Source: Desulfuromonas acetoxidans DSM 684
GTDB taxonomy: Bacteria; Desulfobacterota; Desulfuromonadia; Desulfuromonadales; Desulfuromonadaceae
Reading direction: 5' to 3'
DNA: 64,000 bases
Assembly (NCBI RefSeq): GCF_000167355.1
Contig: NZ_AAEW02000001.1
Span: 1-64,000 of the forward strand
In this document: piece by piece, positions 34,563-37,483 of the stretch
How positions within the stretch are numbered: position 1 is the stretch's first letter
Layout of the letters: the number at the start of each line of letters is the position of its first letter
Notes under the pieces: model-generated
What the model was told of the DNA's origin: nothing
Database searches by the model: none
The model's input: the letters and a program-made list of their open reading frames with translations, nothing else
Program-made: the position numbers and the translations under genes

Positions 34563-34601
34563 GTTTCTTCACAACGGTATCTTGAAACCCTCCCCATATT
34601 G

Positions 34602-34616
34602 ATATACATTGTATAT
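34602..34616. promoter_or_regulatory. Perfect palindrome before the CHAD-ParA operon
   Basis: ATATACA-T-TGTATAT, 15 bases, ending 19 bases before the operon's first ATG at 34636. It probably overlaps the -10 region or the transcription start, the right place for autoregulation, for example by the small RHH-like protein of the same operon. Confidence 0.45.
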
Positions 34617-34635: not shown

Positions 34636-36135
34636 ATGACCACCGCATTATCCTGGAAACTCAAAAAACCACTCACGCATGAGCAGATTTCCCGCCTGTT
34701 GGAACCCTACACCGTCGAGTGCATCGACACCAGGGAGATGCAGTGGTCTGTTCTTGATGACCCAGTCTGGCATATCTGGCAAAACGGCTGCACCCTGCTC
34801 TATGCCCACCACCAACCGTCTTTGCAACTGTGGCAAAACAATGCGCTTCAATTCAGCGATGCCAACGCTTCGCCCGAGGCGCGATTTCCCTACCAGCTCC
34901 ACAACCAACATCTGGCAGAACGCCTACACCCCCTGCTCGGCGTGCGGGCATTTACCGAGAAACATCGCGTATTCTGGCAACAAACCACCCTGGCGGTACG
35001 CAATGACGACCGAAAAATCGTCTGTCGGCTGATCCTCATCCAACAGCCGCAAATCTTTTTGCTCAGCCTGCATCCATTACGCGGTTATCAGCAAGAAGCC
35101 AAAGCCATCCGCCGCCAACTGTCGACGCTGAACATGCAGCCCTGCGCCTCGCTAACCATGCGACAAATCCTTCTCTACAGCGGCCTTGAGGTTACGGTCC
35201 CACCCAAGCAATTGACCTTCAACCTCAAAGCGACAGATCCCGCACAGCAAGCGATTTTGCACATGCTCAAACATCTGGTCACATCAGCGCGCCAGCAGGA
35301 GCAGGGACTGGTTGACGATATTGACACGGAATACGCTCACCAGTACCGGGTGGCACTGCGCAAGGCCCGCTCACTGATCAGCCTGTTTAAAACCTGCCTG
35401 CCGCAACAGCCACGCAATGCCCTGAAACACCAGTTTAAACAATTGGCCCAACGCAGCAATCGCCTGCGTGACCTGGATGTGTTTCTGCTCGATCGCAACC
35501 ATTATGTCACGCTCCTTCCGCCTGCACTTGGCCCCGGCCTGGACAAGGCGTTTCAGCGCATCCAGCGCCAGCGCAACCGAGAGCAAAAACAACTGACAGC
35601 CCTGTTGTCTTCTGCGGAGTATCAGGATGAAGTCCAACACCTGATGACCACTCTAGACCTGGCACAACAGCCGTTGACCAACAAAGGGACGAAAGCGATC
35701 AGGCCGTTGGCCGCCAAAAAGATTGCCCGTCACTACCGGCAGATTTGCCGGGATGGTCTAGACATTGACGACACCACCGCCGATGTCGTCATTCACGCAT
35801 TGCGTATTGAATGCAAGAAATTGCGCTACCTGCTCGAACTGTTCAGCGAACTCTTTCACCGCAATCGGATCAAACGGCTGATCAAAAAACTCAAGCAACT
35901 TCAGGATATCCTCGGACGTTTCAATGACCTGACCGTACAACAGGCGTTTCTCAGCCATCTGGCCACCACAACCCGTGACTCGGCTCAAGCCATCAGCCTC
36001 AATGCGCTAATCGCGGTTCTCTATCAACAACATGTTCAGGAACGCCGACGGGTGGTGGGCGCCATTGCCGCCTTTACCGGTGAAGAGGGTGTCATGGACA
36101 TTCAAACCCTGACTCAAGACGGAGACACGTTATGA
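34636..36135 (+). CDS. CHAD-domain protein with degenerate CYTH-like N-terminus
   Basis: 499 residues from the ATG at 34636 (GAGGAG five bases upstream). The C-terminal 290 residues form a CHAD domain, a bundle of charged helices known to bind polyphosphate: HQYRVALRKARSLISLF, LRDLDVFLLDR, VVIHALRIECKKLRYLL and LKQLQDILGRFNDL. The N-terminal 200 residues look like a CYTH-type barrel without the ExExK catalytic motif, so triphosphatase activity is unlikely. No signal peptide. It overlaps the ParA gene by 4 bases (ATGA). In other bacteria CHAD proteins sit on polyphosphate granules; that location is inferred here. Confidence 0.88.
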   Translation: MTTALSWKLKKPLTHEQISRLLEPYTVECIDTREMQWSVLDDPVWHIWQNGCTLLYAHHQPSLQLWQNNALQFSDANASPEARFPYQLHNQHLAERLHPLLGVRAFTEKHRVFWQQTTLAVRNDDRKIVCRLILIQQPQIFLLSLHPLRGYQQEAKAIRRQLSTLNMQPCASLTMRQILLYSGLEVTVPPKQLTFNLKATDPAQQAILHMLKHLVTSARQQEQGLVDDIDTEYAHQYRVALRKARSLISLFKTCLPQQPRNALKHQFKQLAQRSNRLRDLDVFLLDRNHYVTLLPPALGPGLDKAFQRIQRQRNREQKQLTALLSSAEYQDEVQHLMTTLDLAQQPLTNKGTKAIRPLAAKKIARHYRQICRDGLDIDDTTADVVIHALRIECKKLRYLLELFSELFHRNRIKRLIKKLKQLQDILGRFNDLTVQQAFLSHLATTTRDSAQAISLNALIAVLYQQHVQERRRVVGAIAAFTGEEGVMDIQTLTQDGDTL

Positions 36136-36896
36136 AGACCGTCGCCTGTTACAGCATTAAGGGTGGAGTGGGTAAAACCGCTTCAGCCGTAAACTTTTCC
36201 TACTGGTCGGCCCACCAGGGCCATCGCACCCTGCTGATTGACCTTGATGCCCAGGGGGCTTCGTCATTTTATTTCCGGGTGCGTAACCCATCGAAAAAGA
36301 ACTGGGCCAAGCGCTTCTTCAAGACCTATGAACAGTTGCTCGACCAAATCAAGCAGAGCGATTTCAACCAGCTCGACATTCTGCCGGCCCATCACTCGTT
36401 TCGTCATTTTGATACCCTGCTAGCTGAGCATGGCGGTAAAACCAACCGCCTGCGTAAAGTCCTTAAGGGGCTGGCGGTGCATTATGATGTGGTCATTTTC
36501 GACTGCCCGCCGAGTATCAGCCTGTTGGCGGAAAACATCTTTGCCGCAGCCGACCTGATCAGCGTACCGATGATCCCCACCACCCTGTCACAGCGCACGT
36601 TTGGGCAATTGCTTGATTTTTTTGACCAACAGGGGTATTCACAAGATCGGATACGCCCTTTTTTCACGTTGGCCGACGGCCGCAAACAACTGCATCGCGA
36701 CACGGCGGCAACATTGCGTAAGGCGTATCCGCTGTTTCTCGAACAGGCCATACCACACTCCACCTACGTGGAAAAAATGGGCCTCCACCAGGCGCCCATT
36801 GATCTGTTTGCCCACAACAGCCAGGCTAACCGATGCTACCAGGCCTTATGGCAGGAGATTGCCTCGGCACTCAACCTGAACCACCCCTCCTCTTGA
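36132..36896 (+). CDS. Minimal ParA/McdA-type partition ATPase
   Basis: 254 residues. Deviant Walker A KGGVGKTAS at about 10-18 with the signature lysine, switch I LIDLDAQGAS, Walker B-like VVIFDCPPSISLL, and the conserved MIPTTLS. It has no N-terminal HTH, like ParA proteins that move cargo such as carboxysomes or chemosensory arrays over the nucleoid instead of binding a plasmid centromere. The coupled CHAD gene and the two basic proteins downstream suggest the cargo is polyphosphate. A housekeeping chromosomal ParA is less likely because no parB or gid genes are adjacent. Confidence 0.9.
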   Translation: MKTVACYSIKGGVGKTASAVNFSYWSAHQGHRTLLIDLDAQGASSFYFRVRNPSKKNWAKRFFKTYEQLLDQIKQSDFNQLDILPAHHSFRHFDTLLAEHGGKTNRLRKVLKGLAVHYDVVIFDCPPSISLLAENIFAAADLISVPMIPTTLSQRTFGQLLDFFDQQGYSQDRIRPFFTLADGRKQLHRDTAATLRKAYPLFLEQAIPHSTYVEKMGLHQAPIDLFAHNSQANRCYQALWQEIASALNLNHPSS

Positions 36897-36912
36897 CGAA
36901 CAGGGAGCGACC

Positions 36913-37089
36913 ATGAGTGACAAAAAGAAGAAAAAGAAAAAGGACAGCCAACTGTTGATCCGCATCAACAGTGAAGAACGGGATCGCTTTGTAGCACTGT
37001 GCGACGATCTGGACACCAGTGCGGCCCGCGAGATCCGTAAATTCATCAAAGCATTCATGCGCGAGCATGATGCAACGGAAAACGAATAA
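36913..37089 (+). CDS. Tiny basic RHH-like protein
   Basis: 58 residues: a lysine run at the N-terminus (MSDKKKKKKKD), a beta strand QLLIRIN, then two helices (SEERDRFVALCDDL and AAREIRKFIKAFMREH). This strand-helix-helix order is the ribbon-helix-helix fold used by ParA partners and plasmid repressors. GGGAGCGACC precedes the ATG. It lies 16 bases after the ParA stop and 28 bases before the HhH gene. Likely the ParA adaptor, the operon repressor, or both. Confidence 0.75.
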   Translation: MSDKKKKKKKDSQLLIRINSEERDRFVALCDDLDTSAAREIRKFIKAFMREHDATENE

Positions 37090-37117
37090 CCACTTCCCCC
37101 ACCAAGGAGACAAGACC

Positions 37118-37483
37118 ATGACGACCCCGATCCTCAATGTCCGTGGTATCGGCCCGGCCACCGCAGCCCTTCTCGCCGAAAACGGTATCACCAGCGCTGA
37201 ACAACTCGCTGCACAAAAAGTCGGTAGTTTGGCCGCGGTGAAAGGATTCAGCGAAGCGCGTTCACGCCGCGTAATTGCCGATGCCCAGGCATTATTTGCT
37301 GCTGTCAGCACAGAAACTGAAACAAAAACATCGGACGTTCCAGACCAAGACACGGCCAAGAAAAAGAAGAACAAGAACCAGAGTTCCGCGAAGAAAAAAG
37401 CAACTAAAAAGCCGGCGAAAAAGGTCGACAAAAAAAAGGGGAAGAAGAAGAAAAAAGGGAAGAAAGCAAAGAAGAAAAAGTAA
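37118..37483 (+). CDS. Helix-hairpin-helix protein with histone-H1-like lysine tail
   Basis: 121 residues from the ATG at 37118 (AAGGAGA upstream). Residues 1-60 form a helix-hairpin-helix DNA-binding unit (VRGIGPATAALLAENGI, VGSLAAVKGFSEARSRRV). Residues 70-121 are mostly lysine with Ala, Pro and Gly, ending in long KK runs, as in bacterial H1-like proteins such as AlgP and PhaM tails. Such tails bind DNA and inorganic polyphosphate without sequence specificity. Last gene of the CHAD-ParA operon; it ends 6 bases from the convergent radical SAM gene. Confidence 0.85.
   Translation: MTTPILNVRGIGPATAALLAENGITSAEQLAAQKVGSLAAVKGFSEARSRRVIADAQALFAAVSTETETKTSDVPDQDTAKKKKNKNQSSAKKKATKKPAKKVDKKKGKKKKKGKKAKKKK

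Follow-up and report, generated by a model that had tools for sequence, protein, structure and literature searches.

How polyphosphate (polyP) granules come to be positioned in bacterial cells, and whether a dedicated ATPase is involved, is the question raised by a four-gene operon of Desulfuromonas acetoxidans DSM 684. The operon lies on the + strand of a 64,000-nucleotide stretch of this genome (contig NZ_AAEW02000001.1, positions 1 to 64,000; here called the window) and encodes, in order, a protein with a CHAD domain, a ParA-type ATPase, a ribbon-helix-helix (RHH)-like protein and a helix-hairpin-helix (HhH) protein with a lysine-rich tail (Table 1). An earlier reading of the window sequence (the original prediction) had placed four co-directional genes at positions 34636-37483 and proposed that they tether and space polyP granules. 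Its open reading frames (ORFs) and junctions were reproduced, with the CHAD and ParA genes sharing a 4-base ATGA overlap and the ParA/RHH and RHH/HhH junctions measuring 16 and 28 bases, respectively. Our comparisons indicated that the operon probably directs the ATP-driven positioning of polyP granules, either as spacing or as partition to daughter cells, with the CHAD protein as the cargo adaptor. On balance, we also lean towards the wider view that a dedicated ATP-driven system for polyP granule partition exists across several phyla, in which a fusion of a dead TTM enzyme and CHAD would serve as a ParB-like adaptor and the HhH tether and RHH autorepressor would be clade-specific.

The ParA ATPase and its CHAD partner

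The description of the second gene product as a minimal ParA without a helix-turn-helix (HTH) domain was borne out. The protein matched Pfam AAA_31 (E 1.5e-33), and the residues K10, GGVGKT, D37/D39 and D123, by which the signature Lys, the Walker A' Asp and the Walker B Asp are kept, were invariant in 12 sequences. Its relationship to named partition ATPases was distant (best NCBIfam match NF041546, at 74.9 bits where the cut-off is 180), and its best relatives among solved structures were ParA/Soj proteins, with MinD weaker. Matches to the ParA occurred in the genomes of all 58 relatives and fell into two groups, one of 12 genomes at 45-100% identity over near full length and the other mostly at 22-35% identity, short local stretches excepted. 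CHAD matches were found in 22 of the 58 genomes, and these included all 12 genomes with the subfamily ParA (Fisher p 7e-7 for co-occurrence; shared ancestry was ignored in this and all other Fisher values). In each of the 12 a CHAD gene was directly upstream of ParA.

A collection of species genomes scanned with the ParA alignment yielded at least 511 relatives, of which the best 80, chosen on ParA alone, were kept. A co-directional CHAD gene was upstream of ParA in 60 of these 80 loci, or 60 of the 78 evaluable loci once L060 and L077, whose contigs start within 130 bases of ParA, were left out of the denominator. By record title the 60 loci were from Gamma- and Alphaproteobacteria, Nitrotoga, Actinobacteria, Acidobacteria, Gemmatimonadetes, Planctomycetes, Dormibacterota and Deferrisomatales, and many came from metagenome bins. 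The 18 loci lacking an adjacent CHAD gene comprised 15 from Methylococcales (L047-L049, L052, L054, L055, L058, L059, L063, L065, L072, L073, L076, L082 and L091) together with L084, L095 and L120; CHAD was encoded elsewhere, over the cut-off, in 17 of these 18 genomes, and in L120 a CHAD gene was found about 5 kb downstream of ParA. As a control, about 1.5 kb on each side of 18 generic Soj-type ParA loci was inspected, and CHAD was present in none of them. The CHAD-ParA junction was a 4-base overlap in 46 of 74 measured cases and within -30 to +100 bases in 72 (the broken ParA of L043 was left out, and the L120 CHAD and the decayed L033 were taken in), and no in-frame CHAD-ParA fusion was seen among the scanned ORFs. 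In the methanotroph Methylotuvimicrobium buryatense 5G (L056) 39 bases separate CHAD from the ParA gene downstream of it. In a draw of 118 genomes from across the phylum, including that of D. acetoxidans, CHAD occurred in 10, a ParA of the subfamily in five (E no higher than 1e-45) and both in four, and the two genes were adjacent in all four (Fisher p 1.3e-4; with the D. acetoxidans genome excluded, CHAD accompanied three of four ParA, p 1.2e-3).

The original prediction had made its case depend on the genes occurring together in other genomes, and the CHAD-ParA pair proved to be conserved over several phyla. Judged from sequence and gene order, the window ParA is a member of a distinct subfamily tied to CHAD, and CHAD plus ParA is the core of the operon. 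Other neighbors of ParA across the loci included a carbohydrate (glycogen) phosphorylase gene in nine and mgtE in eight, one example of each having been checked with Pfam.

The CHAD protein had been described as CYTH/CHAD-like, and both halves of this assignment stood, CHAD by Pfam (PF05235, E 9.8e-54, residues 211-439) and CYTH by fold (Z of about 12 to TTM proteins). Its AlphaFold 2 (AF2) model was of high quality (pLDDT 94.1, pTM 0.88), and residues 192-497 superimposed on about residues 194-496 of the C. tepidum CHAD-polyP structure 6qva with a Z of 34.8 and a root-mean-square deviation (rmsd) of 1.5 over 302 residues. Mutation of six residues in the C. tepidum protein (H253, R256, R260, R296, R418 and Y419) has been reported to lower polyP binding (PMC6537752). 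All six counterparts in the window protein (Table 1) were kept, and they were invariant in the 53 sequences of CHAD alignment A2, which comprised the window sequence and 52 of the 56 CHADs from the CHAD-ParA loci.

In the N-terminal part of the protein (residues 1-200) Pfam gave no match at E up to 0.01. The model of residues 1-186 resembled TTM/CYTH proteins, CYTH cyclases and triphosphatases among them, at a best Z of 11 to 12. For 7ns8 the Z was 11.9 at an rmsd of 3.4 over 149 residues, and a yeast polyP polymerase (3g3q) was matched at Z 10.2. The catalytic motif of CYTH/TTM enzymes, ExExK, was absent from the first 60 residues of all 56 CHADs and from the window protein, and was present in each of 10 stand-alone CYTH proteins; the CHAD count took in that of L120 and left out five frames that had no usable start (L044, L050, L102, L112 and L122). 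Among the 58 relatives, ParA accompanied 12 of 15 CHADs with an N-terminal domain versus none of seven short CHADs (p 7e-4; G054, whose CHAD frame is longer but has the domain from residue 8 onwards, was counted as short). The corresponding values in the phylum draw, where long and short referred to open-frame length alone, were four of five and none of five. Because ParA occurred only with CHADs carrying the N-terminal domain, we propose that the dead CYTH domain contacts ParA. The C-terminal tail LLAMG...RQ..AR..F, conserved in CHAD, was weighed for this role and rejected, as most CHADs without ParA also carry it. In three loci from genomes without ParA (L127, L129 and L131) the reading frame of CHAD continued into a stretch with Cys residues that resembled CxKCGAVSxKKxHLCxPEK, and the L131 frame ran on into SixA.

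Table 1. Positions of the operon's genes, domains and candidate control sites in the window.
Feature	Position	Strand	Details
CHAD protein, proposed polyP-granule adaptor	34636..36135	+	499 aa; Pfam, AF2 model, structure match
N-terminal degenerate CYTH/TTM domain, aa 1-190	34636..35205	+	no ExExK motif
CHAD domain, aa 192-497	35209..36126	+	polyP-contact residues H235, R238, R242, R278, R397, Y398 conserved
ParA-type ATPase without HTH	36132..36896	+	254 aa; deviant Walker A KGGVGKT intact
RHH-like protein, Lys-rich N-terminus; proposed autorepressor that may activate ParA	36913..37089	+	58 aa
HhH protein with Lys-rich tail, proposed nucleoid tether	37118..37483	+	121 aa
Palindrome ATATACATTGTATAT, candidate operator	34602..34616	.	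overlaps -10-like hexamer
Promoter-like TTGAAA-N17-TACATT before CHAD gene	34582..34610	+	weak: 2 sites found versus 1.4 in shuffles

Polyphosphate enzymes and the role of the ATPase

Genes for polyP enzymes were scored on either strand within the available stretch of 94 loci, many of which were short. PPK1 was present in 10 loci and PPK2 in six, one or the other in 14, a stand-alone CYTH in 10 and a SixA-type phosphatase in 17; co-directional with ParA were nine PPK1, three PPK2, eight CYTH and nine SixA-type genes. Pfam checks agreed for one example each of PPK1, PPK2 and the SixA type and for two of CYTH. The full order PPK1-CHAD-ParA-CYTH-SixA-HhH/Lys was found in L040. In the D. acetoxidans genome the PPK1, CYTH and SixA-type genes sit together on another contig, C4 (L145, 5601-8678), away from the CHAD-ParA operon, and for this reason the window operon looks like a split piece of a PPK1-CHAD-ParA-CYTH-SixA-type cluster. 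Among the 58 relatives PPK1 occurred in 26 genomes, including 21 of the 22 with CHAD (Fisher p 4e-10), and in the 22nd, G049, a PPK2 gene was beside CHAD. Within the genus, PPK1, CHAD, ParA, RHH and HhH were all present in five genomes and none was found in the other five, of which three are only 80-88% complete.

We infer granule positioning from what ParA proteins do. The CHAD protein would coat the granule via its helical domain, and ATP-bound ParA dimers would reside on the nucleoid. Contact between the two, most likely through the non-catalytic CYTH-like N-terminal domain, would trigger ATP hydrolysis, and the granules would then track the ParA gradient as carboxysomes track McdA. The HhH/Lys-tail protein would form a passive bridge between granule and DNA in the manner of AlgP. 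The RHH protein would repress the operon at the upstream palindrome and may also touch ParA, as plasmid ParG does.

The alternative that survives best, although we consider it unlikely, is that the ParA-like ATPase is a switch on CHAD and PPK that controls polyP synthesis or granule nucleation rather than positioning. There are MinD-like ATPases with regulatory roles in enzyme or secretion complexes, and such a role would fit the gene links that ParA shares to PPK1, PPK2, CYTH and SixA, the many loci with no recurrent partner besides CHAD and the presence of BcsQ among the best family matches of ParA. However, the nucleotide-site motifs typical of the class are intact in this ParA, its closest solved structures are ParA/Soj with MinD weaker, and nine other intact loci have, after ParA, an HhH/Lys-tail protein that probably contacts DNA.

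Several observations weigh against granule positioning by a CHAD-ParA pair. The second-best NCBIfam match of the ParA was BcsQ of cellulose synthesis (E 1e-18), and the genomes behind the Fisher values are related, with phylogeny uncorrected. The pairing itself had exceptions: the subfamily ParA was apart from CHAD in the 15 Methylococcales, G036, G055 and G089 had a long CHAD and no subfamily ParA, G111 had the ParA without CHAD, and G019 carried a broken ParA copy (47% over 104 residues). Of the 94 loci, many with short stretches, 80 showed no PPK gene, and five PPK1 genomes (G012, G013, G018, G028 and G056) were without CHAD. HhH was missing from four of the 12 ParA genomes among the 58 relatives, and G053 had HhH but no subfamily ParA, CHAD or PPK1. 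Finally, no disordered basic activator peptide stood out in the window CHAD protein, whose first 15 residues had a net charge of +3 and were modelled as folded. Among the 56 CHADs a net charge of +3 or more was found in the last 15 residues of 22 and in the first 15 residues of three. Upstream of the ParA of G111 (L138, 7572-9007) a coiled-coil protein containing a PAS domain is encoded, perhaps another cargo adaptor.

The RHH and HhH genes

The four-gene order CHAD-ParA-RHH-HhH, whose conservation the original prediction had proposed as a check, was kept in four further genomes of the genus and, with an inserted CYTH gene, in two genomes from another family of the order. The flanking TruD, IclR, radical SAM and PHP-GT4 genes were common to another genome of the genus. 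A second copy of the whole operon, decayed by frameshifts and stops and lacking the palindrome, was observed in L033 (G008, contig 2), downstream of an ORF with an integrase core of transposase type. Promoter and terminator scans gave no clear excess over shuffles.

The predicted 58-residue RHH-like protein was present, and its sequence match to the fold was weak (Pfam RHH_9, E 0.068, below the cut-off). The AF2 monomer (pLDDT 77.9) had a low-confidence Lys-rich N-terminus followed by helices at residues 20-33 and 36-53, which we take to be the pattern expected of an RHH monomer. The motif TATACA(A/T)TGTATA was found just before the CHAD gene in all seven genomes with RHH. It was absent from the eight loci lacking RHH that were compared, and from the decayed copy in L033. 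The exact 15-mer of the window palindrome was present as a single copy in its 3.82 Mb genome, and TTGAAA occurred at the corresponding place in L031, L032 and L034. When entire genomes were searched, the 13-base core was found in eight of the 58, namely the seven with RHH and G018 (one of the 51 others), with one second site in G001 (Fisher p 2.7e-8 against RHH presence).

The RHH protein is best read, from these patterns, as an operon-specific autorepressor acting at the palindrome. The original prediction had suggested it as a ParA partner; both roles are possible, and that of repressor is better supported because RHH is present in only seven of the 58 relatives and tracks the operator-like palindrome. 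A universal ParA partner was rejected on the same count of seven genomes. The IclR protein is a less likely factor for the palindrome, as L036 and L037 keep the palindrome and no IclR-like ORF was seen before their CHAD genes.

The RHH gene also bears on a second alternative, that a partition module of plasmid or element type, made up of ParA and a ParG-like RHH, was captured beside the CHAD gene and acts on DNA. In ParF/ParG plasmid partition the gene of the ParA ATPase adjoins that of a small RHH protein whose N-terminus is basic and flexible, and the basic N-terminus of the window RHH, its place beside ParA and the palindromic site upstream are reminiscent of such modules. We regard this as improbable, since ParA pairs with CHAD and not with RHH (12 versus seven of the 58 relatives), the palindrome has one copy in the genome, the flanking genes are kept in another genome of the genus and D. 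acetoxidans carries another ParA, of Soj type, on contig C9. Nor was there a ParB-like gene among the four, and a Pfam scan of these and four neighboring genes identified none of ParB type. Unlike the RHH of ParF/ParG, that of the window would be a clade-specific addition, with CHAD as the constant partner.

The fourth gene product was confirmed as an HhH protein (HHH_5, E 7.8e-12) with a lysine-rich tail, there being 26 Lys among the last 50 residues. The tail was rich in poly-Lys and, by eye, contained no KPAA repeats; a weak PhasinPhaH match (E 0.02) was also obtained. Ten other loci encoded proteins of this HhH/Lys-tail build after ParA; the ten include the decayed L033 and two loci from Gammaproteobacteria (L051 and L067). 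Among the 58 relatives HhH was matched in nine, eight of them ParA genomes and the ninth G053. The natural reading, by analogy, is that this protein may tether the granule to the nucleoid, because loss of AlgP alters polyP granule size and spacing.

Remaining alternatives and comparison with known systems

Still less probable than a captured partition module is that the CYTH-CHAD protein is a polyP-regulated signalling enzyme (an adenylate cyclase or triphosphatase) to which ParA is incidental. Its fold does resemble those of CYTH cyclases and triphosphatases, and cyclase activity has been proposed for a CYTH-CHAD protein encoded beside ppk and parA (PMC6416229). Against this reading stand the absence of ExExK from the 56 CHADs, among which Acidithiobacillus was not represented, the stand-alone CYTH genes with ExExK in some of the same clusters, and the frequent 4-base overlap of CHAD and ParA. 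Least probable of all is a different storage body as cargo, for example glycogen or polyhydroxybutyrate (PHB), as the nine phosphorylase and eight mgtE neighbors and the PhasinPhaH match could suggest, since a CHAD gene is still present in 17 of the 18 genomes in which ParA does not adjoin it, and PPK1 and CHAD track ParA, a one-sided comparison in that PHB and glycogen genes were not searched.

PolyP granule positioning by CHAD and ParA would have a precedent in the McdA/McdB system, in which a ParA-type ATPase and a cargo-bound partner position a cytoplasmic body, the carboxysome, rather than DNA (PMC6328274). In both cases a ParA gene is coupled to one whose product would be expected to reside on the cargo, here in 60 of the 78 evaluable loci among the best 80 of at least 511. 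The adaptor differs, being a pseudo-CYTH-CHAD protein that is to our knowledge unrelated to McdB, and the cargo would be polyP. In Pseudomonas aeruginosa, the histone H1-like AlgP has been proposed as a link between polyP granules and the nucleoid, and its loss alters granule size and spacing (PMC9239181, PMC13052382). The basic tail of the HhH protein is similar in kind, although it is Lys-rich and borne on an HhH head, whereas that of AlgP consists of KPAA repeats. The AlgP model, unlike that proposed here, has no ATPase, and the word ParA is absent from the main text of the AlgP paper.

The original prediction knew of no described system with this gene set. None was found for the four genes together, but ppk-parA-CHAD clusters, which combine the same three families, have been published from Acidithiobacillus (PMC6416229, PMC10892726). 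The available portions of these reports present ParA as a plasmid or chromosome partition protein (a plasmid partition protein in PMC10892726) and the CYTH-CHAD protein as a cyclase or copper-resistance candidate, and give no granule-positioning role for the cluster. In the open-licence literature, preprints not covered, no report was found whose title, opening of the abstract or available passages assigned a ParA to polyP granules. A 2025 review lists the granule spacing factor as "AlgP/?" and its ATP dependence as "Unknown", with the need for energy still to be seen (PMC13052382).

The original prediction is partly supported, in that its operon has a widespread, PPK-linked CHAD-ParA core and an RHH protein that is probably a regulator. 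This CHAD-ParA pair is barely studied and offers a direct candidate for polyP granule positioning in cultured species. If the proposal is correct, polyP granules would be a new type of cargo for ParA and contact with the ATPase a novel function of a dead CYTH domain, and the question of whether polyP granule positioning consumes energy would be answered.

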